Shown: positions 4,531-21,138 of the stretch, piece by piece
How the letters are laid out: every line of letters begins with the position of its first letter
How positions within the stretch are numbered: the first letter of the stretch is position 1
IMG/VR virus record: IMGVR_UViG_3300009606_001232
Coordinates: 1-24,344 of that record
Length of the DNA stretch: 24,344 bases
Strand: one strand, 5' to 3'
Source: a virus
The notes under the pieces: model-generated
The model's database searches: none
Told to the model about the DNA's origin: nothing
Seen by the model: only the letters and a program-made list of their open reading frames with translations
Made by a program: the position numbers and the translations under genes

Positions 4531-7500
4531 ATGGCAAGTAATGTAAGGTTTGTAGATTCCCTTAAAGTAGGACAATATAAAGGAGAACGTGGTCCTGCTG
4601 GTACTGGTTCACTTTTCCCATTTACTGGTTCTGCAATTATATCTGGAAGTCTAGATGTAACAGGAAGTTTAAATGTTTCAGGTAGCATAAACGCTACTAG
4701 CTTTACAGGGTCATTTACTGGTTCTTTTACAGGAGATGGTTCTGGTTTAACAGATACACCAATTAATATTAATGCTGGAAATGCCTTATATTTCTCAGGC
4801 GATACTTTAAATGTACGTACAGGAGGAGTTAATTCAGGTGGTTCAAATATCCCATCATCTACTGCTAATAGAAATTATATAATACAATATCAAGATACTC
4901 CTCATCAAACTTTGGTTGTTAACGTACCTTGGATAGATACAACCTATTCAGCAGGAACAGGATTAAGTTTAAATAGAGAAAATAATATTTTTAACGTAAA
5001 TGTTAGTGGATTACCAGTTGTAGTTGGCTCTCCATCCCCTGCTACAGTATCTAACCGATACTATGCTATTCAAACCAATATGAATGAAGAATTAATAGTT
5101 AACGTACCTTGGACAGATACTCCATGGGATGGAATTTTTTCTGGTAGCGCTCAAATAACAGGATCTTTAGGAGTAACAGGAAGTGTACTTGTTAGTGGTA
5201 GCGTAGGTATCGGAACTACTAGTCCTAGCGAAAAGCTAGAGGTTAGCGGTGGTATTATAGGGGAGACTTTATTTATAAGAAACATTGACGGCTATAACGC
5301 TAAGCTGCTTTCTTCCAACCTAACATTTAACCGTACTTTTAATTTCCCGGACAATGAGGGAACATTAGCTCTTACTTCAGATATACCTAGTGCATCCCAA
5401 TGGGACGATGTTACAGGTGGTATAAATTATGCGAATGGCAACGTCGGTATTGGGACGACAAATCCCGGTTATGCCCTAACTATTAAAAGCTCAGGAAACG
5501 CCTCTCAAAACTTTCTCCTTATCCAAAACTCCAGTAATAATTCAATGTTTACTGTAGCTTCAGACCCCTCAGGTAACGCTAATTTAGCAGTTAGAAACTC
5601 CGCAGGCATAGCGAAAATATTTATTAACACCGTAGGAGATTCATTCTTTGCAGGTGGAAACGTCGGGATTGGAACAACTAGTCCTAGCCAAAAGCTAGAT
5701 GTTAATGGTAATATCTCAATAGCCACTACCTCTGGTCCATCAGCTAGTAACCAAATAAGTATGGTAGGTTCAAGGGCTATTTTCGGATATGATGGCAGTA
5801 TAAATTCTGCGTTTATGAGGTCAAGTGACATATCAAAGCCTTTGGTTTTTGGCTCAGGCACAAGTGAATTTATGAGAATTGTCTCTTCCACAGGTAACGT
5901 TGGAATAGGAACAACTAGTCCTAGTGAAAAGTTGCACGTTAATGGGAACTTAGAATTAGGGACCAACCCAACTTTATATTGGACTTCAAATACTTTAAAT
6001 TTACAAAATAAGTCTATCGCAAGTATTCCTGTAGTAAATATTAAGGGTAATGTAAACTATGGAGCGAGACTACAAGTCGAAGATGAATTGGGTTTGGTTG
6101 CTATAAGATTAAGAGGAGATGGAAATTCTTATTTTAATGGGGGAAATGTTGGAATAGGAACAACTAGTCCAAGTGTTAAATTGCACGTAGATAGTGGTGG
6201 AACAGAAACAGTTGCATATTTTAAATCTTCTGACAATAGAGCTAGGATAGTAATAGCTGACAATGATACAAATACTTATATAATCTCCGAAGATAGTAAA
6301 ATGAGCTTAGGTTCAGCTGCTAGCTTAAACGCAGGGAATTTAACAATTGACTCAGCAGGTAACGTTGGTATAGGAACGACTAGCCCTAGTAGTAAGTTAG
6401 AGGTAGCAGGGACAATAAATCAAACTGTATTAGAAGGTGCACCAAGCGATAACCTAAACAATATACTAAGTACAAGGTATTTTAGCTCACATACAGCAAC
6501 TACAAATGCTCCTTCAGGAATAACTGCATTCGGAATGGGACTATCTATTAATTACGGAAGTAATGCCAGTATGCAACTTATGAGTAATAGAGGGAATACA
6601 ACTCCACTCTCTATGCGAAAATTTTCCAATGGAACTTGGAATGGTTGGATTGACATACTAGATTCAAATAAAATTAGTGATGCAGATATTACATCTTGGG
6701 ATAGTGGGATTACTCGCTGGAATGGAACATCAGGAACCAGTAATAATTGGAATAATATTGATGAGAATAGTTTTATAACAGGTCACACCTCAACACTGAA
6801 CTACCCTCCTGAACTTAGTCAGAGCTTCCTATCAGGAATTGCTACAATGTATAGCTCAGAGAATGGTTGGCAGGTAGCGAGTAACAGAAGTAGCGTACAA
6901 GGTGTATACTTTAGAAAGGTTACAAATGGAACTTGGTCTTCTTGGAATAAATTTATTGATAGTCGAGATATATATGTTGATGTATCGAATGGTAATATTG
7001 GAATTGGGACTACTAGTCCTGTCTCCAAGTTACAAGTACAGGGCGATATTAGAACAAACACTCAGGTCATAGTTACGGGTGCAGGAAATATAGATAATTC
7101 CTCAAATAACTTAGATTTAAACGCGGTAAATAATTTATTATTTTCAATTGGTGGTTCTGAAAAAATGAGGATTCTAGCTAACGGCAACGTAGGAATCGGC
7201 ACGACTACTCCTAGTGAGAAGTTAGAGGTAAGTGGATCAAGATCAAAATTTAACGGTATTTTAGTTGGGGAAAATAGGACTGATATACAGTTCGAGGGTG
7301 ATGGTAATCTTACCGTAGGCAACAACGACTGGTTAATTTTAAAAGAGGGGGGTCAAGAAGTTATGAGAGCTGGGGGCTCTTCTAAAAATGTAGGTATCGG
7401 GACAACTAGTCCTGATAATAAACTACACCTATACAGTAACAACTCAAGCGCCGACGCTCTATTAAAGTTAGAACAAGACGGGACAGGAGATGCATCTATA

Positions 7501-8346
7501 GACTTCCTGCTAACCTCAACTAACTTATTTAGAATAGGAGTAGACCATTCTAATAACGATGCTCTTACGTTTGCAGCAGGAAGCTTTGGAACTGGACTAG
7601 ACTACATGGTTATCAGATCAGGCAACGTAGGTATAGGAACAACTTCACCAAATAAAAAACTTCACGTCAATTCAGGTGCAATAAACGAGGCGGCTAGATT
7701 TGAGTCTACAGATGTAGGCGCTTTTATTGAATTTAAAGACAGTGGTACAACAGACTTGCCTATAATTGGAGCTGTTGGTAATAATTTTGACATACGTACA
7801 GGAGGCTCTACTAGTGTTAGGGTAACAAGCGCCGGAAACGTAGGTATTGGAACAGATAGTCCTGCTGGAATGTTGGATGTAAATGGAAGTATCTTTCTTT
7901 CAGATGGAGGATCGAATAAAGGCTCAGTTAGAGTTTTGACGGCTTATACTGGAGCGTATTATAATAATGCAGGCACTTTAGGTATTTGGCAAGTTAATAC
8001 TTTGGACGCTGTAAACTTTAGGAGTAATTCAGACTTAGTTATAAATTATGATAACAATGGTTTCAATCCGTCTTCGCATTTTGCGGTGACTCAGGACGGG
8101 GTGGAGCAGCTGTATGTTGAGGGAACGACAGGCAACGTAGGTATTGGAACTACTAGTCCTAGTGAAAAGCTAGAGGTTGACGGTCAAGTGCTATCTGATG
8201 GGTATAGACTTGCCGCAATGCAAACGGCACCTGCAGCTAGAAATTCAGCTGGAACACTAGGAGAAATAGTAATAGACGGAAATCACATATATGTTTGTTA
8301 TGCTACAGACTCTTGGAGTAGAGTAGCTTTAGACATATCATGGTAA
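4531..8346 (+). CDS. Large modular tail fibre with 12 GNVGIGTTSP repeats
   Basis: A 1271-aa fibre, probably trimeric, that should carry host recognition. The N-terminus has an attachment-like start and TGS/SGS repeats ending in FTGDGSGLTD (about 69-78). Then comes a duplicated unit ending VNVPWxDT (about 130-137 and 190-197). Twelve copies of (G)NVGIGTTSPS-KL-V follow, with the Val of VGIGT near residues 225, 305, 378, 457, 540, 612, 823, 887, 954, 1033, 1104 and 1203. The one long gap (612-823) holds two related domains of about 75-80 residues, ending NGTWNGWIDIL and NGTWSSWNKFID, resembling pyocin-knob receptor-binding domains. The C-terminus (GEIVIDGNHIYVCYATDSW, then SRVALDISW) is a short cap common in marine phage fibres. 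There is no C-terminal S74 chaperone-peptidase domain. Base composition inside the repeat region is patchy, suggesting modular exchange. Confidence 0.93.
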   Translation: MASNVRFVDSLKVGQYKGERGPAGTGSLFPFTGSAIISGSLDVTGSLNVSGSINATSFTGSFTGSFTGDGSGLTDTPININAGNALYFSGDTLNVRTGGVNSGGSNIPSSTANRNYIIQYQDTPHQTLVVNVPWIDTTYSAGTGLSLNRENNIFNVNVSGLPVVVGSPSPATVSNRYYAIQTNMNEELIVNVPWTDTPWDGIFSGSAQITGSLGVTGSVLVSGSVGIGTTSPSEKLEVSGGIIGETLFIRNIDGYNAKLLSSNLTFNRTFNFPDNEGTLALTSDIPSASQWDDVTGGINYANGNVGIGTTNPGYALTIKSSGNASQNFLLIQNSSNNSMFTVASDPSGNANLAVRNSAGIAKIFINTVGDSFFAGGNVGIGTTSPSQKLDVNGNISIATTSGPSASNQISMVGSRAIFGYDGSINSAFMRSSDISKPLVFGSGTSEFMRIVSSTGNVGIGTTSPSEKLHVNGNLELGTNPTLYWTSNTLNLQNKSIASIPVVNIKGNVNYGARLQVEDELGLVAIRLRGDGNSYFNGGNVGIGTTSPSVKLHVDSGGTETVAYFKSSDNRARIVIADNDTNTYIISEDSKMSLGSAASLNAGNLTIDSAGNVGIGTTSPSSKLEVAGTINQTVLEGAPSDNLNNILSTRYFSSHTATTNAPSGITAFGMGLSINYGSNASMQLMSNRGNTTPLSMRKFSNGTWNGWIDILDSNKISDADITSWDSGITRWNGTSGTSNNWNNIDENSFITGHTSTLNYPPELSQSFLSGIATMYSSENGWQVASNRSSVQGVYFRKVTNGTWSSWNKFIDSRDIYVDVSNGNIGIGTTSPVSKLQVQGDIRTNTQVIVTGAGNIDNSSNNLDLNAVNNLLFSIGGSEKMRILANGNVGIGTTTPSEKLEVSGSRSKFNGILVGENRTDIQFEGDGNLTVGNNDWLILKEGGQEVMRAGGSSKNVGIGTTSPDNKLHLYSNNSSADALLKLEQDGTGDASIDFLLTSTNLFRIGVDHSNNDALTFAAGSFGTGLDYMVIRSGNVGIGTTSPNKKLHVNSGAINEAARFESTDVGAFIEFKDSGTTDLPIIGAVGNNFDIRTGGSTSVRVTSAGNVGIGTDSPAGMLDVNGSIFLSDGGSNKGSVRVLTAYTGAYYNNAGTLGIWQVNTLDAVNFRSNSDLVINYDNNGFNPSSHFAVTQDGVEQLYVEGTTGNVGIGTTSPSEKLEVDGQVLSDGYRLAAMQTAPAARNSAGTLGEIVIDGNHIYVCYATDSWSRVALDISW
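5197..8184 (+). repeat. Coding repeat array: 12 GNVGIGTTSPSxKLxV modules
   Basis: Imperfect coding repeats within the fibre gene. Spacings between successive copies are 80, 73, 79, 83, 72, 211, 64, 67, 79, 71 and 99 residues. The DNA of the copies differs mainly at third positions, for example in how GIGTT is encoded, but most keep ACTAGTCCT or a one-base variant for the TSP part. The spread of synonymous changes says the array is old or was assembled from different sources, while the shared core could still support recombination. Confidence 0.9.
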
Positions 8347-11019: not shown

Positions 11020-11508
11020 ATGGCAGTATTAAACCCAAACGAAATATTTTTCACAGCATTTGAACCAAAACAAAAGAATAGATTTATTTGTTTTGTAGAT
11101 GGATTTCCCGCTTACATCATGAAAGCGGTAGGAGCTGTAACTATAGAACAAGGAACAGTACCTTTAAATCATATCAATGTTGAAAGATATGTAAAAGGTA
11201 AAACTAAATGGGGCACAATTGAATTTACATTATTTGATCCAATTACTCCCTCTGGTGCACAAGCAGTAATGGAATGGGTTAGATTACACCATGAATCAGT
11301 AACTGGTAGAGATGGATATAGTGATTTCTATAAAAAAGATTTAACTATTAATGTATTAGGACCAGTAGGTGATATTGTTTCAGAATGGATTATCAAAGGA
11401 GCAATGATTACAAATGCTTCGTTTGGAGATTATGGTTGGGACCAAGAAAACGCTGCTCAAACAATTACAATGACTGTACAACCAGATTACTGTGTATTAA
11501 ATTTCTAA
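11020..11508 (+). CDS. gp19: Tail tube protein, gp19-like
   Basis: The tail tube subunit (162 aa; T4 gp19 is 163 aa), which stacks as hexameric rings to form the inner tube through which DNA passes. The N-terminus NEIFFTAFEPKQKNRFICFV (from residue 6), the central KWGTIEFTLFDPITPSGAQAV and the C-terminal GWDQENAAQTITMTVQPDYC are the gp19 pattern, where an all-beta tube fold ends in a strand followed by a short tail. Directly after the sheath gene, as in T4. A terminator follows, so the sheath-tube block is closed before the chaperone gene. Confidence 0.96.
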   Translation: MAVLNPNEIFFTAFEPKQKNRFICFVDGFPAYIMKAVGAVTIEQGTVPLNHINVERYVKGKTKWGTIEFTLFDPITPSGAQAVMEWVRLHHESVTGRDGYSDFYKKDLTINVLGPVGDIVSEWIIKGAMITNASFGDYGWDQENAAQTITMTVQPDYCVLNF

Positions 11509-11536
11509 AAAACAATTACATAACTTATCAAAAAAT

Positions 11537-11561
11537 GTTTGGCTACGGTCAAACTTTTTTT
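11537..11561 (+). terminator. Intrinsic terminator after the tube gene
   Basis: A hairpin GTTTGG-CTACGG-TCAAAC (6 bp with one G-U pair, 6-base loop) followed directly by seven T, and preceded by six A. The stem is short, so termination may be partial. Confidence 0.75.
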
Positions 11562-11582
11562 GTATGTTGTATATGTATAACT
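11559..11582 (+). promoter_or_regulatory. Possible promoter of the chaperone gene
   Basis: After the terminator, TTTG at 11559-11562 is followed by an AT-rich GTATGTTGTATATGTATAA element. Together these loosely resemble a Bacteroidota promoter (TTTG, then TAnnTTTG). The late box found before the neighbouring genes is absent. Weak call. Confidence 0.3.
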
Positions 11583-11613
11583 GATAAAAACGTTTTAATT
11601 AAATAAAGATTAT

Positions 11614-12342
11614 ATGAGTGAATTTAAATTTCCAAGTGAAGAAGTAGAACTACCTTCAAAAGGTTTAATATATCCAAAAACCCACCCACTTTCTAGTGGT
11701 AAAATAGAATTAAAGTATATGACCGCTAAGGAAGAAGATATTTTAACTAACCAATCTTACATTCAAAAAGGAACAGTATTAAATAAATTACTAGATTCTG
11801 TAATATTAACAGAAGGGGTTAAACAACAAGACTTAATATTAGGAGATAAAAATGCAGTATTAGTTGCTACTCGTGTATTAGGTTATGGAGCAGAGTATAA
11901 ATTTACTTATAGGGGAGAAGAAAAAATTGTTGATTTATCTTCTTTAGAAAATAAAGAATTTGATGAATCTTTAATTACCCCAGGTAAAAATGAATTTAAA
12001 TTTGTTCTCCCTCATACTAAAACTCCAATTACTTATAAAATTTTAACGGGTGCCGATGAAATTAAAATTGATAGAGAATTAGAAGGGTTAAAGAAAATTA
12101 ACAAAAATTCATCTCCTGAATTAAGTACAAGACTAAAATATATTATTACTTCAGTTAATGGGGAATCCGGATCTAAAGAAGTTAGAGAATTTGTTGATAA
12201 CTTTTTATTAGCTATAGATTCTAAAGCATTAAGAAAACATCTTAGAGACACTCAACCAGATGTAGATCTTCATTATATAGACGAAGATGGAAGGGAGGTA
12301 GCCATCCCTATAGGGATTAGCTTTTTTTGGCCTGAGCTCTAA
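11614..12342 (+). CDS. Tail assembly chaperone, gp26/T4_baseplate-like (short form)
   Basis: A 242-aa protein of the T4 gp26-like (T4_baseplate) type, which I read as the tail assembly chaperone. The N-terminus VELPSKGLIYPKTHPLSSGK (about residues 11-30), followed by IELKYMTAKEEDILTN, is the family signature. The C-terminus ends IPIGISFFWPEL. Position is telling: it lies between the tube and the tape measure genes, where tailed phages encode chaperones that coat the tape measure. In many phages that gene makes a second, longer product by ribosomal frameshifting, and here another open frame continues past the stop (see the extension). The gene lacks the late box of its neighbours and lies between two terminators, so it may be expressed separately and at a lower level. 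Confidence 0.8.
   Translation: MSEFKFPSEEVELPSKGLIYPKTHPLSSGKIELKYMTAKEEDILTNQSYIQKGTVLNKLLDSVILTEGVKQQDLILGDKNAVLVATRVLGYGAEYKFTYRGEEKIVDLSSLENKEFDESLITPGKNEFKFVLPHTKTPITYKILTGADEIKIDRELEGLKKINKNSSPELSTRLKYIITSVNGESGSKEVREFVDNFLLAIDSKALRKHLRDTQPDVDLHYIDEDGREVAIPIGISFFWPEL
12322..12328 (+). other. Candidate slippery site (T7) for ribosomal frameshift
   Basis: Seven T in the codons AGC TTT TTT TGG of the chaperone gene. A +1 slip (or -2) here puts ribosomes into the frame that is open from 12314 to 12619. A -1 slip meets TGA at once and gives nothing. The only overlap between the two open frames is 12314-12339, so any shift must occur there. A second possibility inside it is a +1 shift at CTC TAA (12337-12342), which would keep the FFWP motif. 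Confidence 0.6.
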
Positions 12343-12622
12343 TATAGCACCCCAAATTAGGGTAGGATTATTTACCCAAATACACTCTATATTATTTCAT
12401 GGTAAAGGTGGGTATGATTACCATACTGTGTATAATATGCCTGTATGGTTACGTAAATTTACCTTTAAACAAATATCTGACTTTTATGAAGAAAAAAATA
12501 AAATAAAAAAAGCATCACAAACCTCAGGTAAAACTTCACTAGTAGGAGATGATGGTAAAGTTAATGCACCCGCATTTAAAAATGCAACAAAACAGTATCA
12601 AAATAAAAGCAGCTACAAATAG
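12329..12622 (+). CDS. Frameshift extension of the tail assembly chaperone
   Basis: This reading frame, +1 relative to the chaperone gene, encodes about 97 residues with strong protein character: QIRVGLFTQIHSILFHGKGG, then YDYHTVYNMPVWLRKFTFKQ and a Lys-rich helical end. It has no good start of its own. The only early candidates are GTG at 12428 and ATG at 12437, which would discard the conserved-looking IHSILFHGKGGYDY part. Joined to the short form through the overlap it would give a product of about 335 aa, resembling the long chaperone form (G-T type) of other tailed phages. The stop lies in the stem of a terminator, so the frame fills the transcript exactly. Alternatives are a sequencing error in the T7 run, a true frameshift mutation, or a small separate gene. 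Confidence 0.72.
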   Translation, partial: GLSSNIAPQIRVGLFTQIHSILFHGKGGYDYHTVYNMPVWLRKFTFKQISDFYEEKNKIKKASQTSGKTSLVGDDGKVNAPAFKNATKQYQNKSSYK

Positions 12623-12633
12623 TTGCTTTTTTT
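12606..12633 (+). terminator. Intrinsic terminator after the chaperone
   Basis: A 10-bp stem AAAGCAGCTA/TAGTTGCTTT (one G-U pair) with loop CAAA, running into a 7-T tract. It overlaps the stop codon (12620-12622) of the frameshift extension and directly precedes the tape-measure box. Confidence 0.9.
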
Positions 12634-12650
12634 AATATTTATAATAAAAT
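12634..12650 (+). promoter_or_regulatory. Putative late promoter box of the tape measure
   Basis: AATATTTATAATAAAAT, an exact copy, immediately after the terminator T-run and ending 8 bases before the ATG (12659). Confidence 0.7.
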
Positions 12651-12658
12651 AGATACTA

Positions 12659-14803
12659 ATGGCTGATATGAAAGACCAAGCTAAAGCAGCAGGTGAATTT
12701 AAAGATAATTTAAATGAGGCAGCTAACGCACAACAGAAGATAAAAGAAAATCTAAACGATATTCTTTTTGAACAAAGAAATCTTGCTGATGAAGCTCGTG
12801 GTTTTGCAAAAGCAGTATTCGATTCCTCTACTCAAGCAACTTCTACGGCTGCTGCTTTTAGGGGTATAGCTAGTATATCATCAACAATAAATTCAAAAAT
12901 TGAAGATATTGTAACTGGAGAAAAAACCTTAAATGATTTACAAAAAGATAGAAATAAATTAAGAGAAAAAGAAAATTCTTTAGGAGTAGAATTAAATCAA
13001 GCAGTAGGGGAATTTGGGGCAACTAATATTAACATCCAAGAAATTTTAAAAAATAATATCTCCTTATATGATGCCTTAGGTGACTCTGTAGAAAATTTAG
13101 ATGGAAATCAATTAGCTTTATTAGGTTTATATGAAAGTCAACTAAACATTCTAAGAGATCAAAAAGCAGAATACGATGAAATAGAAGATTTTGCTAAACA
13201 AATAGACAATAACATGGGTGTTGCTGGCAAGGCGACTGAAGGACTTGGTAGTGTTTTAGATAAGATAGGTGCTGGAGATATAGGAAAAAAATTAGGGTTA
13301 GATGATGCAATAAAAGGTGGTAGAAAAGAGGCTGCTAAATTAGCAGGTACAGCGGGCAATGGAATGACCCCAATGAGTAAGCAACTTAAAGTTGCAGGTA
13401 AAATGATTGGTACCATGGGCAAATCATTATCTAAAGCCTTAGGTCCTATTGTCATTATAGCCGAATTAGTTAAGGGGATGATGCAAGCTGATGAACAGAC
13501 TAAGGAATTAGGCCGTTCAATGGTAATGACTAAAAATGAATCAAGAAAATTCTCAGCTAATATTTCAGCTGCAGCTAGATCTAATTACCAAATGGGTATT
13601 ACAGGTACAAAAGTACTTGAAAATATAACTAAAGTAAATGAACAATTTGGTTTTATAACAGAATTCAGTGGAGAAACTTTAGTCAGTATGACTAAATTAA
13701 CTTATACTTTAAAAATTGGAGCAGAATCTGCTGGTAATTTAGCGGCAGCAGCTGAAGCAACTGGGGTAAATTTTGAGGATAATTATAAAAATATCCTTGC
13801 TGCAAGTTATGAGTTGCAACAACAAGCAGGAACTCAAGTTGATTTAAGAGCTGTACTTGAAGAAACTGGAAAAGTAACTGGTCAAATAAGAGCTAATTTT
13901 GGAGGTAATACTGTTGAAATAGCAAAAGCAGTTACAAATGCTCGTTTATTGGGTACTGAAATGGGTACAATAGCAGCAGCAGGTAAGCAGCTTTTAGATT
14001 TTGAAAGTTCTATTAGTAAAGAATTAGAAGCTGAATTATTAATTGGTAGAGATATAAACCTTGAAAGAGCAAGAGCAGCTGCCCTAACTGGAGATCAAGT
14101 AGCACTTCAAAATGAATTAGCCCGAGAAATGGGTTCATTTGAAGATTTTACTAAAATGAATGTTATCCAACAAGAAGCTCTAGCAGGAGCAATGGGTATG
14201 AGTGCTGATCAAATTGCTGATATGTTATTTAACCAAGAAACAATGAACAAATCAGCTAAAGAATTACGTGCTTTAGGTAAAGATGAATTAGCAAATAGAT
14301 TAGAACAAAAATCAGCACAAGATAAAATGAATTCTGCTATGGCAGAGTTAAAACAAGTTTTTGTTGATTTAGGAGCAGCATTATCTCCCATATTAAATGT
14401 ATTATCTGTTGCAGCAGGTATTGTTTCAACTATAGTTGGATATACCCAAGATTTATTAGGATTTATAAATCCGTTTAGTGATTCATTTGGTAAAGTAGAT
14501 TTTGAAAGTTCTGCAGGTAATGCTGCACTTGGGGGGTTAGGCAGAAGTGTTGGGATAGAAGATGGTGTAATAGGACCTGGTGGTGATTTAATTACTACTT
14601 CTCCTGAAGATTTCCTTATAGCAACTAAAGACCCCCAACAAATGGTTTCAAATGTTGCCCAAACAGGCCCATCTGTTGATACTTCAAAATTAGAAAGATT
14701 ATTAGAAGAATCACTTAATAAAAAACAACCAGCTCCCGTAATAAGAATGAATGATGTAAAATTAGGTACTGCTGTAGACATGGGTGCATTCTCCATACAA
14801 TAA
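12659..14803 (+). CDS. Tail tape measure protein
   Basis: The tape measure (714 aa), which sets tail length and probably helps DNA entry. Residues 1-120 and 150-190 are highly charged helices with coiled-coil character. Hydrophobic helices at about 258-276 (LGPIVIIAELVKGMM) and about 571-603 (PILNVLSVAAGIVSTIVGY) could insert into the host membrane. Between them lies an all-helical Ala-rich part with the conserved blocks LDFESSISKELEAELLIGRD (about 446-465) and MNVIQQEALAGAMGMS (500-515), which I recognise from tape-measure-like proteins of marine phages. The C-terminal GVIGPGGDLITTSPEDFLIA (about 636-655), with ATKDP, is also typical. If one residue spans about 0.15 nm, the tail would be slightly over 100 nm. 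The chaperone gene directly upstream supports the call. Confidence 0.85.
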   Translation: MADMKDQAKAAGEFKDNLNEAANAQQKIKENLNDILFEQRNLADEARGFAKAVFDSSTQATSTAAAFRGIASISSTINSKIEDIVTGEKTLNDLQKDRNKLREKENSLGVELNQAVGEFGATNINIQEILKNNISLYDALGDSVENLDGNQLALLGLYESQLNILRDQKAEYDEIEDFAKQIDNNMGVAGKATEGLGSVLDKIGAGDIGKKLGLDDAIKGGRKEAAKLAGTAGNGMTPMSKQLKVAGKMIGTMGKSLSKALGPIVIIAELVKGMMQADEQTKELGRSMVMTKNESRKFSANISAAARSNYQMGITGTKVLENITKVNEQFGFITEFSGETLVSMTKLTYTLKIGAESAGNLAAAAEATGVNFEDNYKNILAASYELQQQAGTQVDLRAVLEETGKVTGQIRANFGGNTVEIAKAVTNARLLGTEMGTIAAAGKQLLDFESSISKELEAELLIGRDINLERARAAALTGDQVALQNELAREMGSFEDFTKMNVIQQEALAGAMGMSADQIADMLFNQETMNKSAKELRALGKDELANRLEQKSAQDKMNSAMAELKQVFVDLGAALSPILNVLSVAAGIVSTIVGYTQDLLGFINPFSDSFGKVDFESSAGNAALGGLGRSVGIEDGVIGPGGDLITTSPEDFLIATKDPQQMVSNVAQTGPSVDTSKLERLLEESLNKKQPAPVIRMNDVKLGTAVDMGAFSIQ

Positions 14804-17538: not shown

Positions 17539-20500
17539 ATGGCTGGAAATATAATCGGGGAACCAATAAAAGAAATAATTGGGGAACAAGTTGATCTAAG
17601 ACAAAAAATCCACGGAGCGGGTTATAATGAATCTTCTATTCAAAGATCACCTGCAGTATTAAATTTCTTAAATAATAAAAATGCTTGGATAAAACTTGCT
17701 TCGGGTGTTAGTTTAGATGATGGGGAAAGATTAAAAGCTTTATCTGAAGCTGAAACATCAAACTATTTTACTGAAAATGATATTGCTTCTTTAACAGGTA
17801 AAAACTTAGCTAAAAATTATATATTATTTAATACTATACAATCTTTAACCCAAGGAGAGGATGCTGCAACTACTTATGAAACAAGAAGTGGTATAAGAAC
17901 CACTAATAGTTGGAATGGTAGTAATGATAAAATGTATGGTGGAATGGGGGGTAATAGTAGAGGATTACAACCCGTCCCTGGTATAACAGGAATTAGTGTT
18001 GAATCTATAAATAGAGGTTCAATTAGAAAGGCAACAGTAACCTTAAAAGCCTATAATAAATTTCAATTTGGTATTATTGAAATACTTTACCTAAAATTAG
18101 GTTATTTAATGATGTTAGAATGGGGTTGGGATAAATATATTGATTCTATAGATAATAATAATAATCCTGTAATAAAAAATGTAGAATCTACTATTATAGA
18201 GAACCAATGGTTTAAGGATGGATCAGTTTCTCAATTGGATATGTTACGAAACATAAATGGTTTTGTAGATCTTTATAAAGGAAACTACCAGGGGTTTTTT
18301 GGTAAAGTAAATAACTTTAGCTGGACTTTAAATGCAGATAATACCTACGATATTACTGTTAATTTAATTACTCTTGGGAGTGTAATAGAATCAATAAATG
18401 CTATAGTACCTTCTGCACCTCTTACTACAAAACAAATAAAAGAAAGAACTGCTGCTCTTAGAAAAGTTTATAAAATTGCAGATGAAGAGGGTGAATTGCT
18501 TGATGATGAAGAAGATAATAAAGTAATAACCAATTTAGGTTCAGATAGAATATCAAGTTTTATTGCTCAACAAATAGCAACATTTTTTGATCAAAATCTT
18601 GAAATTAATCAAAATTATTATCATTTTCCAAATGCAGTAGGTAAAACTAACTCTAGTGGGGAAAATGTTGATGTAGAAACTAATCAAGATAAAATACCCC
18701 CAAGTTCTAGATATTATATTAGATTTGGGGAATTATTAAAAAATATTGAAGAAAATGTAATCTTTAAAGTAGTTAATGGAGATTTATCTAAAGAATCTTC
18801 TATTACATTTGAAAAATCAGAAGAATTTACTCGAATTAATTATGAACCTAATTTAATACCTTTAAATCCTTCAATTTGTATTTTTAAACCTGTTTATACT
18901 GAAGAATTAGGTATAACAGAAACAATAGGACTTCCTTCATTTTCAGGACTAAAAGATTTTGTAGTAGAAAAAGATAATGTTTATTATGGTAAATTAATGA
19001 ATATTTATTTTAATTTGGACTATGTATCTACAGTTTTAAACACTAATAAAAATTCAAAAAATGAATTAAATTTATATGATTTTATTCAAAAGTTATTAGA
19101 TGGAGTAAATAGATGTATGGGTGGTGTCCCAGATCTTTCAGTAAGTATAAAAAATGATAGAGTAATTTATTTTTTAGAAGAAAACCCAATTACTGGATAT
19201 GAGGTAGTTTATCCTCCTGAAACTAAAGAGGTAGAATTTAATATTATAGGATATACTCCTACTAAAGGGTCTACGTTTGTAACTGATTTTAATTTTCAAA
19301 CTAAAATTACCCCTAAGCTAATGACCCAAATATCCATAGGGGCAACAGCAGCAGGGTCAGAACAAAATTCATTAAATGCTGTAGGATATAAAAAGTGGAA
19401 TGTGGGGTTAACCAATAGATTTGAAGAAAAATATGAAAATGGAACAATTTTTAAATACTCAATTCCATCCCCAGATGAAGTAGCTACAAATAAAGAAAAA
19501 TATTATAATGATATTTATGAAAATAATTTTAAAGTAAATGCTGAGTATAGAGTAAGACCTCCTGCTTATAGTTGGAATTATAAGGGTTTTACTAAACGAT
19601 ATGGAACAGAAAATACATCATTTTGGAGATCTAGAGAAAAGAATCTAAATGATTCTGAAATGAGAGCAAGTGTTTACGACGAAATTGAAAAAATTGATAC
19701 GGAAATTGCTGATCGAGGTATTGAAGTATTAAATGAAGGTGAAAAATTAAACAATTATCCTACTTATTTATTAGATGGTTTTGGGGGGACGGGTACTAAA
19801 TTTGTAGAAGTAAAAGTATCTAAAGCAGAAAGAAATGCAAAAATAAGAGAAAATATGAAGGCAGAAGGTTCTGTAATTTTGGGTTCTGGTAATGCTACAC
19901 AAGGAGAAGGTTTAACAACTAAATTAGTACCCCAAAAAGTTAGTACAGCAGATGCTTTATATTGGTATGGATCAGAAAACCCCAGTTTTTTAGAAAGAGG
20001 TTATAATTCATTTAAAAGATATAAATCCTTTTTAGATCAATATCAATATGAGGATCAAGATATTGTTTCGGGGGCAACGGGTTTTATTCCTGTAACTTTA
20101 GGATTAACTTTTGATGGGTTAGGTGGTATAAAAATTTATAATCAAATAAAAGTAAACCAAAATGCTCTTCCTGCATCATACCCTAAGGCTTTACAATTTA
20201 TTATAGATGGGGTTAATCATACTGTAGATGGAAATCTTTGGAAAACTAATATAACCACAATTTCTCGACCAAAAACAACACTACCCGTAAGAAGAAAAAT
20301 ATCCAAAACCCAAGCTGTAGAAGTAAAACCACTACCCACAACAAAAACATTTACAGGTCCAGCAGAACAGGCTGTCTCTTTAATAAAAAATCTACCTTTA
20401 ACTGCTGGAACTAGTAATGGTTTAATATATTACCCTGAAGAAACACCTAAAATTCAAGTAGTATTACACCATACAGCAGTAAATGCACCTATAGAAAATA

Positions 20501-21138
20501 TAGTTAGGAATTGGACAAAACTATCAGACCATGTTTCTACCCATTTTATTATTAATAGAAATGGAGATTATGACCAATTATTCCCTTTAAAATATTGGGG
20601 GAACCATATAGGTGCTAAAAGACCAGGTAGTAGCTACTTGCAAAAAAGTACTATTTCTATTGAACTTGAAGCAGTAGGATTTTTAAAATATATAAATAAT
20701 ACAGGAAAATACCCAAAAAATGCACTTTCAGAAACCGCACAATTTAAACAGGGTAATAAAACATTTACTTATAAAGAACTTCAACAAGGAATTAATGAAG
20801 TACCAATAGCTAGACCATTTAAAATGAATAGTGATGGGTCTTTATCACAAACAGGTACTTATAGGGAGGAGATGTATTACCAATCATATACAACACCTCA
20901 ATTAAATACTTTGAAAAAAGTTTTACAACAAATTAGAAAAGAATACCCTAATATACCTATAGGATCAAATTATGATGGCATAAATAAATTTTCAGAACAA
21001 TTCCCAAGTAAGGGAGTAGAGTCTGAAACAGCTTTTGCAAATAATAGAGGTACTTACACCCATAACTCTTATAGAACAGATAAAAAGGATATTTTTCCAC
21101 AAAAAGAATTAATAGAATTATTACAAGAATTTAAATAA
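17539..21138 (+). CDS. Baseplate hub with C-terminal N-acetylmuramoyl-L-alanine amidase
   Basis: A 1199-aa hub or spike-associated protein with a cell-wall hydrolase. The N-terminal region has VLNFLNNKNAWIKLASGVSL (about residues 40-59), and GFFGKVNNFSWTLNADNTYD (about 253-272) continuing into ITVNLITLGSVIESI, a pattern of phage baseplate hubs. A later segment GFIPVTLGLTFDGLGGIKIY (about 850-869), ending NLWKTNITTISRP, is hub-like. Residues about 965-1199 are an Amidase_2/PGRP domain: VVLHHTAVN with H977 and H978, SIELEAVGF, and HNSYRTDKKD with H1175 and D1184. H977, H1175 and D1184 fit the zinc ligands of AmpD-type enzymes. It should cut peptidoglycan during tube penetration, as the gp5 lysozyme domain does in T4 with a different chemistry. 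The stop overlaps the next ATG. Confidence 0.86.
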   Translation: MAGNIIGEPIKEIIGEQVDLRQKIHGAGYNESSIQRSPAVLNFLNNKNAWIKLASGVSLDDGERLKALSEAETSNYFTENDIASLTGKNLAKNYILFNTIQSLTQGEDAATTYETRSGIRTTNSWNGSNDKMYGGMGGNSRGLQPVPGITGISVESINRGSIRKATVTLKAYNKFQFGIIEILYLKLGYLMMLEWGWDKYIDSIDNNNNPVIKNVESTIIENQWFKDGSVSQLDMLRNINGFVDLYKGNYQGFFGKVNNFSWTLNADNTYDITVNLITLGSVIESINAIVPSAPLTTKQIKERTAALRKVYKIADEEGELLDDEEDNKVITNLGSDRISSFIAQQIATFFDQNLEINQNYYHFPNAVGKTNSSGENVDVETNQDKIPPSSRYYIRFGELLKNIEENVIFKVVNGDLSKESSITFEKSEEFTRINYEPNLIPLNPSICIFKPVYTEELGITETIGLPSFSGLKDFVVEKDNVYYGKLMNIYFNLDYVSTVLNTNKNSKNELNLYDFIQKLLDGVNRCMGGVPDLSVSIKNDRVIYFLEENPITGYEVVYPPETKEVEFNIIGYTPTKGSTFVTDFNFQTKITPKLMTQISIGATAAGSEQNSLNAVGYKKWNVGLTNRFEEKYENGTIFKYSIPSPDEVATNKEKYYNDIYENNFKVNAEYRVRPPAYSWNYKGFTKRYGTENTSFWRSREKNLNDSEMRASVYDEIEKIDTEIADRGIEVLNEGEKLNNYPTYLLDGFGGTGTKFVEVKVSKAERNAKIRENMKAEGSVILGSGNATQGEGLTTKLVPQKVSTADALYWYGSENPSFLERGYNSFKRYKSFLDQYQYEDQDIVSGATGFIPVTLGLTFDGLGGIKIYNQIKVNQNALPASYPKALQFIIDGVNHTVDGNLWKTNITTISRPKTTLPVRRKISKTQAVEVKPLPTTKTFTGPAEQAVSLIKNLPLTAGTSNGLIYYPEETPKIQVVLHHTAVNAPIENIVRNWTKLSDHVSTHFIINRNGDYDQLFPLKYWGNHIGAKRPGSSYLQKSTISIELEAVGFLKYINNTGKYPKNALSETAQFKQGNKTFTYKELQQGINEVPIARPFKMNSDGSLSQTGTYREEMYYQSYTTPQLNTLKKVLQQIRKEYPNIPIGSNYDGINKFSEQFPSKGVESETAFANNRGTYTHNSYRTDKKDIFPQKELIELLQEFK

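Follow-up and report, generated by a model that had tools for sequence, protein, structure and literature searches.

A predicted +1 ribosomal frameshift with an upstream Shine-Dalgarno-like element and hairpin in a T4 gp26-like tail assembly chaperone gene of tailed phages

Results

Organization of the chaperone locus

The window analysed here is a stretch of 24,344 nucleotides of viral DNA (IMG/VR record IMGVR_UViG_3300009606_001232). A chaperone gene whose product ends in GISFFWPEL sits in it, flanked on one side by the tail tube gene and on the other by a long ORF at the tape-measure position (Table 1). Counterparts of this long ORF are annotated as tail tape measure protein in Flavobacterium phage immuto and Listeria phage LIS04. 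The product of the chaperone gene (TAC-N) matches PHROG 150 (baseplate hub) with an E value of 2e-7. Its score against the Pfam family T4_baseplate (PF12322) is 18.8 bits, below the cut-off of 24.5, and the best match to this family among its relatives has an E value of 5.5e-6. A PDB sequence search gave no match. The N part and the extension described below were folded as separate models. The AF2 model of TAC-N reached a pLDDT of 91.5 and its top PDB rows were the HK97 TAC (2ob9, Z 4.6) and YqbN (3klu, Z 4.5), both weak resemblances with low Z. Judged from the sequence matches, the N product is probably a T4 gp26-like tail assembly chaperone. A second ORF overlaps the first in another frame between tube and tape measure, and this gene order fits the G/GT type.

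Table 1. Features of the chaperone locus, with positions in the window
Feature	Position	Strand	Remarks
Tail tube protein (context)	11020..11508	+	PHROG 4542 tail tube, E 5e-27
TAC-N, T4 gp26-like tail assembly chaperone	11614..12342	+	frame 0, 242 aa, ending FFWPEL
Internal SD-like element AGGGAGGT	12292..12299	+	last G of GGAGG 23 nt before slip codon
Hairpin ATCCC-TATA-GGGAT	12304..12317	+	between SD-like element and slip site, 4 nt before TTT
Slip site TTT TTT TGG	12322..12330	+	putative +1 slip at UUU_U, first or second Phe codon; A-site sense codon
TAC-C extension	12329..12622	+	+1 frame, 97 aa + TAG; fused product 335 aa (predicted)
Tape measure by position (context), 714-aa ORF	12659..14803	+	gene order; annotated relatives

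A conserved extension in the +1 frame

An earlier sequence-only reading of this DNA had placed the end of the chaperone frame at 12342 and an open +1 frame, encoding a protein-like stretch of about 97 residues, at 12314-12619; these coordinates were confirmed. The +1 frame is preceded by TAG at 12311-12313 and closed by TAG at 12620-12622, and holds 102 residues, 97 of which follow the T run. That it lacks a good start also proved right, as its first start-like codons, GTG at 12428 and ATG at 12440, are both downstream of the most conserved part. The third frame closes at once at the slip site (TTG GCC TGA), so that a -1 shift in the window makes nothing. The junction peptide of the predicted fused product is FFGLSSNIAPQIR.

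Searches of IMG/VR gave 57 relatives with one half of the locus, and the best 80 of 208 relatives with the other half were used. These provided 89 unique loci having both halves, the window included. In this set, drawn from the 57 and the best 80 of 208 relatives, the extension lies in the +1 frame in 88 of the 89 unique loci, and in the third frame in the remaining one (L080). In the 30 loci that diverge to less than 75% nucleotide identity, no stop occurred in 2,782 codons of the +1 frame, as against 170 and 423 stops in the other two frames, and substitutions by +1 codon position (855/432/2068) showed a coding pattern. These counts support the earlier proposal of a probable programmed frameshift in a tail assembly chaperone. 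The comparison of homologues that had been suggested with it showed that dozens of independent assemblies, and isolated phages as well, retain the overlapping arrangement. Conservation was carried to 33–67% identity and below by 17 MAG loci and phage isolates; TTT TTT TGG with a +1 extension was found in 14 of the 16 MAG loci having the junction present (33–67% identity). No single-frame fusion of the two parts was found among the loci compared. Some of the alignments were built from the window and related-locus rows, with phage-record rows left out.

The conserved residues of the extension follow the pattern R..LF.QIH.IVFHGKGGYDY.TVYNMPIWLR. Its model is helical with a pLDDT of 82.5, and Foldseek gave no confident match to it. 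DUF6760 (Pfam PF20546) scores 15 bits against the window extension, under the cut-off of 27, and matches the extensions of 12 of 49 relatives at E<=0.1 (best 3.2e-5); in five MAG genomes it gave one weak match and the controls were silent. PHROG 634, 'baseplate hub assembly catalyst', matches some extensions, with a best E value of 4.7e-4. When an extension profile of the window clade was run against 357 ORFs of 18 distant loci, the first 16 rows were all predicted extension ORFs, from +1, -1 and separate-gene lines alike; the four lowest-ranked of these were weak (E 0.05–0.5). A terminator-like stem with a T run (AAAAGCAGCTACAAATAGTTGCTTTTTTT) lies at 12605-12630, over the end of the extension and just before the tape measure gene.

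Place and direction of the shift

The consensus shift site across the relatives is TTT-YTT-TGG-CCT, and TTT YTT TGG is retained down to about 33% protein identity. In the window a seven-T run occupies 12322-12328 and the new-frame GGC begins at 12329. The codons for Phe237, Phe238 and Pro240 are the three columns of lowest synonymous entropy among 92 conserved columns. Low synonymous variation at Pro240 is explained by double coding; the two Phe codons precede the doubly coding stretch. TTT makes up 81% of the Phe codons at other places and stands at the first slip codon in 88 of 89 loci; where Leu replaces Phe at the second, the codon is CTT with a single exception. By this codon usage, the slip codons are under selection. 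In many relatives a +1-frame stop stands directly before AGC/AAC-TTT, and +1 coding (G-L-S/T) starts at GGC. Since constraint begins at the GGC of TGG-C and the +1 stop lies before AGC/AAC-TTT, the shift is placed within AGC TTT YTT TGG. The A-site codon is UGG or, rarely, another sense codon, and the frame-0 stop comes 15–36 nt past the start of the slip site; a stop codon is therefore not what stalls the ribosome.

The variant TTT CTT TGG occurs in 12 of the 89 unique loci and also in the isolated Flavobacterium phage immuto, whose host is Flavobacterium sp. LMO8. These relatives are without a T run, which excludes a read error, transcript slippage or a -2 shift as the common mechanism. They also separate what stood of the sequence-only reading from what did not. 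It had left the direction as +1 or -2, of which the +1 was upheld and the -2 was not; the seven-T run that it pointed out in the overlap is present, yet it is not an essential feature; and the simple indel of six against seven T which it had considered is refuted. A shift in the +1 direction, at UUU_Y or CUU_U, is strongly supported by the comparison of these junctions.

Sequence elements upstream of the slip site

In 32 of the 43 independent +1 loci, the strongest anti-SD duplex of the whole N gene falls between 36 and 18 nt ahead of the slip site. In none of 8 contrast loci, six read by -1 and two with a separate gene, does the best pairing fall there. The SD-like AGGAGG sits 23–29 nt before the slip site. 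Glu codons at the element are GAG in 56 cases and GAA in 12, as against 151:694 elsewhere. The element was significant in the synonymous test at 24 of the 43 loci, and a strong one is missing in 11.

Between the SD-like element and the slip site there is a hairpin, which in the window has a positional p of 0.014 and a synonymous p of 0.055. A positional p<=0.05 was obtained at 24 of the 43 loci and at 0 of the 8 contrast loci, and a synonymous p<=0.05 at 22 of the 43. The hairpins end 1–7 nt before the slip codon. Their region has a mean z of -1.64 against synonymous resampling, while control windows range from -0.31 to +0.29; the mean folding energy of 27-nt windows is -5.35 at the hairpin site, with most of the gene lying at roughly -1 to -2.5. 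The stems vary in sequence and register (ATCCC/GGGAT, AAGTCC/GGACTT, GGCCA/TGGCC, CGCATCC/GGATGCG, GCTCCC/GGGAGC), and the hairpin is missing in about half of the +1 loci. Both elements, counting weaker SD matches, are present in 30 loci; the linear SD distance is 23 nt in 16 of them, with a maximum of 29 nt, and looping out the hairpin shortens it to 6–9 nt in 16 of the 30. No conserved downstream stimulatory structure was detected (mean z -0.40, 30 loci), and Rfam gave no match at gathering score in 11500-12900. By these tests the SD-like element and the hairpin exceed what codon choice or position explains, with synonymous significance in about half of the loci.

A pattern of DNA alone, GGAGG-N22..28-TTTYTTTGGCCTGA, combining the SD-like element and the slip site with no protein requirement, was scanned through IMG/VR. 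It was found at 80 or more loci. Among the matches listed, the chaperone lies in the slip-codon frame in 80 of 80 and the extension in the +1 frame in 79 of 80, the remaining locus ending at the contig end. Recovery of the chaperone in 80 and of the extension in 79 of the matches listed indicates that the SD-like element and the slip site jointly predict the frameshift. In 53 pattern loci independent of the earlier set, the hairpin was significant at 0.05 in 25 by the positional and in 20 by the synonymous test, about 3 being expected. The hairpin is frequent and not universal.

Lineages that decode the junction otherwise

Homologues in which the extension is a separate gene with its own start, a possibility that had been raised against the frameshift, were found in two lines only, L080 and L144, both with ATG. 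In L080 (L080:3001-4070) the slip codons have been lost, the junction reading TTC TTC TGG, and neither an SD-like element nor a hairpin is present. This locus is nested among +1 loci as sister to L111 (support 90/92); by its place in the tree, L080 is a natural reversal, that is, a loss of the predicted frameshift.

The jumbo phages XacN1, RAS14, MIJ3, RaK2, 121Q and Atu_ph07 (L164, L165, L166, L167, L168 and L170) carry the extension in frame -1, and their sequence at the same Phe-Phe place is T TTT TTT/TTC. They form one clade (100/98), all other frameshifting lines being +1. The same position would thus be decoded in different directions across lineages. In the records of the six phages the extension either has no annotation or is listed as a hypothetical gene of its own. 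Neither the SD-like element nor the hairpin occurs in the relatives that read the extension by -1 or encode it as a separate gene.

Some further +1 junctions differ in sequence. The Streptomyces phages BRock and Alone3 (L169 and L171) have a +1 extension after CTG TTT CGC and CTG TTT CAG respectively, with an upstream hairpin CCCRC-TGAAC-GTGGG. Streptococcus phage vB_SagM-GXN1 (L141) has the +1 site TTC TTT CGT, and its chaperone groups with those of Bacillus SP-15 and Listeria LIS04.

Discussion

The comparative evidence makes it highly probable that the locus encodes two forms of a tail assembly chaperone, the long one arising by a +1 shift at UUU_U. The virus would be a contractile-tailed phage in which most ribosomes stop at the frame-0 terminator and release TAC-N, while a minority would shift within the T run, read 97 more residues and give TAC-NC of 335 aa. 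In the shift, the P-site tRNA-Phe would re-pair one base downstream with a sense codon waiting in the A site. The SD-like element may pair with 16S rRNA and hold the ribosome while UUU (or CUU) occupies the P site. The hairpin could loop out the spacer, bringing the effective distance often to 6–9 nt, or refold in the mRNA exit channel, and SD pairing and hairpin together would favour forward movement. In RF2 the forward push comes from a short spacing; at an effective spacing of about 8 nt it is not obvious that the SD would push forward. A hairpin upstream of a +1 site has been shown to raise +1 shifting in yeast and to lower -1 shifting (PMC3639245). By analogy with lambda G/GT (PMC5009743), the short chaperone may bind and coat the tape measure protein, and the long form, made less often, may use its extension to recruit tube subunits.

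Alternatively, with a real +1 shift, the SD-like element and the hairpin could simply follow from the protein sequence (the EE-V and IPIG motifs) and have no action on the ribosome. The IPIG codons are partly palindromic (CCNATNGG), only about half of the loci reach significance in the synonymous tests (22 of 43 for the hairpin, 24 of 43 for the SD), and 11 +1 loci have no strong SD-like element. Against such an origin stand the excess of GAG over GAA at the element alone, the variety of stems, in sequence and in register, that occupy one place, and the hairpins of the 53 out-of-sample loci; both elements are absent in the -1 and separate-gene relatives. This explanation is considered unlikely.

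The extension could instead be a separate gene, entered by re-initiation or at an internal non-AUG start such as the CTG at 12332; the SD-like element and hairpin would then form a split ribosome-binding site. The two elements do resemble split initiation sites. T4 gene 25 has a known split ribosome-binding site. L080 and L144 do encode the extension separately, and annotators often call a small separate ORF. However, in 42 of the 89 unique loci, the window included, no ATG, GTG or TTG occurs in the +1 frame ahead of the conserved GGY motif, and the CTG is not conserved, being CAG in L040 and CTA in L158. The +1 coding constraint begins exactly at the slip site, and an internal start would need neither the choice of slip codons nor their loss in L080. 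An internal start is therefore improbable. A -2 ribosomal slippage, or slippage of RNA polymerase on the seven-T run, would lead to the same reading frame, the window does have seven T, and phage Mu uses a -2 shift (PMC5009743); nevertheless the TTT CTT TGG loci, immuto included, and BRock keep the same +1 extension without a sufficient run, which makes slippage highly improbable. A sequencing or assembly indel splitting one continuous gene, suggested by the homopolymer at the junction, has a vanishingly small probability given that the arrangement is common to dozens of independent assemblies, isolated phages and homopolymer-free loci, with no single-frame fusion in the set.

Frameshifts in tail chaperones are known in the -1, -2 and +1 directions (PMC5009743). 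The predicted +1 frameshift shares with lambda gpG/gpGT (Xu 2004; PMC5009743) overlapping ORFs between tube and tape measure, a startless second ORF and a minority long form, which is predicted here; lambda shifts by -1, whereas the window locus would shift by +1 at UUU_Y/CUU_U with an upstream SD-like element and hairpin. For a canonical -1 site (X XXY YYZ) the extension should lie in the -1 frame; in the window that frame stops at TGA, and in the six jumbo phages it does carry the extension. With prfB (RF2) it shares a YUU_U slip codon and an internal SD-like element upstream; the RF2 site is CUU_U, with UUU_U in a minority of species (PMC5009743). In prfB the SD lies 3 nt upstream and a stop codon occupies the A site, while at the chaperone site the SD-like element is 23–29 nt away with a hairpin between, and the A-site codon is a sense codon, mostly UGG. 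With T4 gp26/gp51 and T4-like TACs the window has in common an N part that is probably gp26-like, by its match to PHROG 150, and some extensions match PHROG 634. According to PMC10885494 and PMC12846349 (citing Vladimirov 2022), some T4-like phages are reported to encode the long form by its own gene and others to use a poly-T -1 signal, unlike the +1 arrangement of the window locus.

Influenza PA-X and other UUU_C +1 sites also combine UUU, a pyrimidine and a sense codon. UUU_CGN is found in GXN1, BRock and L162, and the UUU_CGC of BRock resembles the PA-X site; PA-X differs in being eukaryotic, with no stimulators evident. Shifting by +1 in phage structural or TAC genes is shared with Listeria phage PSA and the archaeal virus HSTV-2. 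In PSA it differs in involving CCC before a stop codon or a pseudoknot, in the capsid and tube genes. In the HSTV-2 TAC a +1 shift is very likely. The hairpin of PMC3639245 likewise lies just upstream of a +1 site and stimulates it, in an artificial yeast construct, whereas the chaperone hairpin is a natural and widespread candidate in phages. Our literature search did not find a description of a +1 form in the gp26-like family or of the three-part signal, which does not imply its absence elsewhere. The three-part signal seems to differ from those known at other +1 sites and appears to be undescribed.

The hosts are likely Bacteroidia, whose ribosomes hide the anti-SD (PMC8710568), and the RF2 site of F. 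johnsoniae has a low shifting efficiency (PMC12421855). A stronger or remote SD together with a hairpin could be an adaptation to such ribosomes. We incline, by a little, to the view that the locus represents a new class of bacterial +1 signal, in which an SD-like element would act over 23–29 nt via a hairpin on UUU_Y/CUU_U with a sense codon in the A site. It would occur in phages of Bacteroidota and several other phyla, its Phe-Phe site being read by -1 in a distant jumbo clade, and would be dismantled when the extension gains its own start. The gp26-like phages, treated through T4 as exceptions to chaperone frameshifting, would then gain a conserved frameshift in the rare +1 direction, and the group appears to be a large set of tailed phages. 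The signal suggests a way of driving +1 shifting that needs no stop codon and works with an SD far upstream, in the likely hosts, where the anti-SD is hidden. Natural variants (CTT, TTC TTC, the -1 relatives, and the loci lacking SD or hairpin) make the mechanism directly testable. In the deposited genomes examined, the predicted long chaperone has been missed or misannotated as a small hypothetical gene.

Elsewhere in the window, a 1271-aa ORF at 4531-8346 carries many NVGIGTTSP repeats and is a probable tail fibre or appendage protein. A 1199-aa protein of the baseplate region, encoded at 17539-21138, contains an Amidase_2 domain at residues 974-1140 and is likely a tail-borne cell-wall hydrolase.
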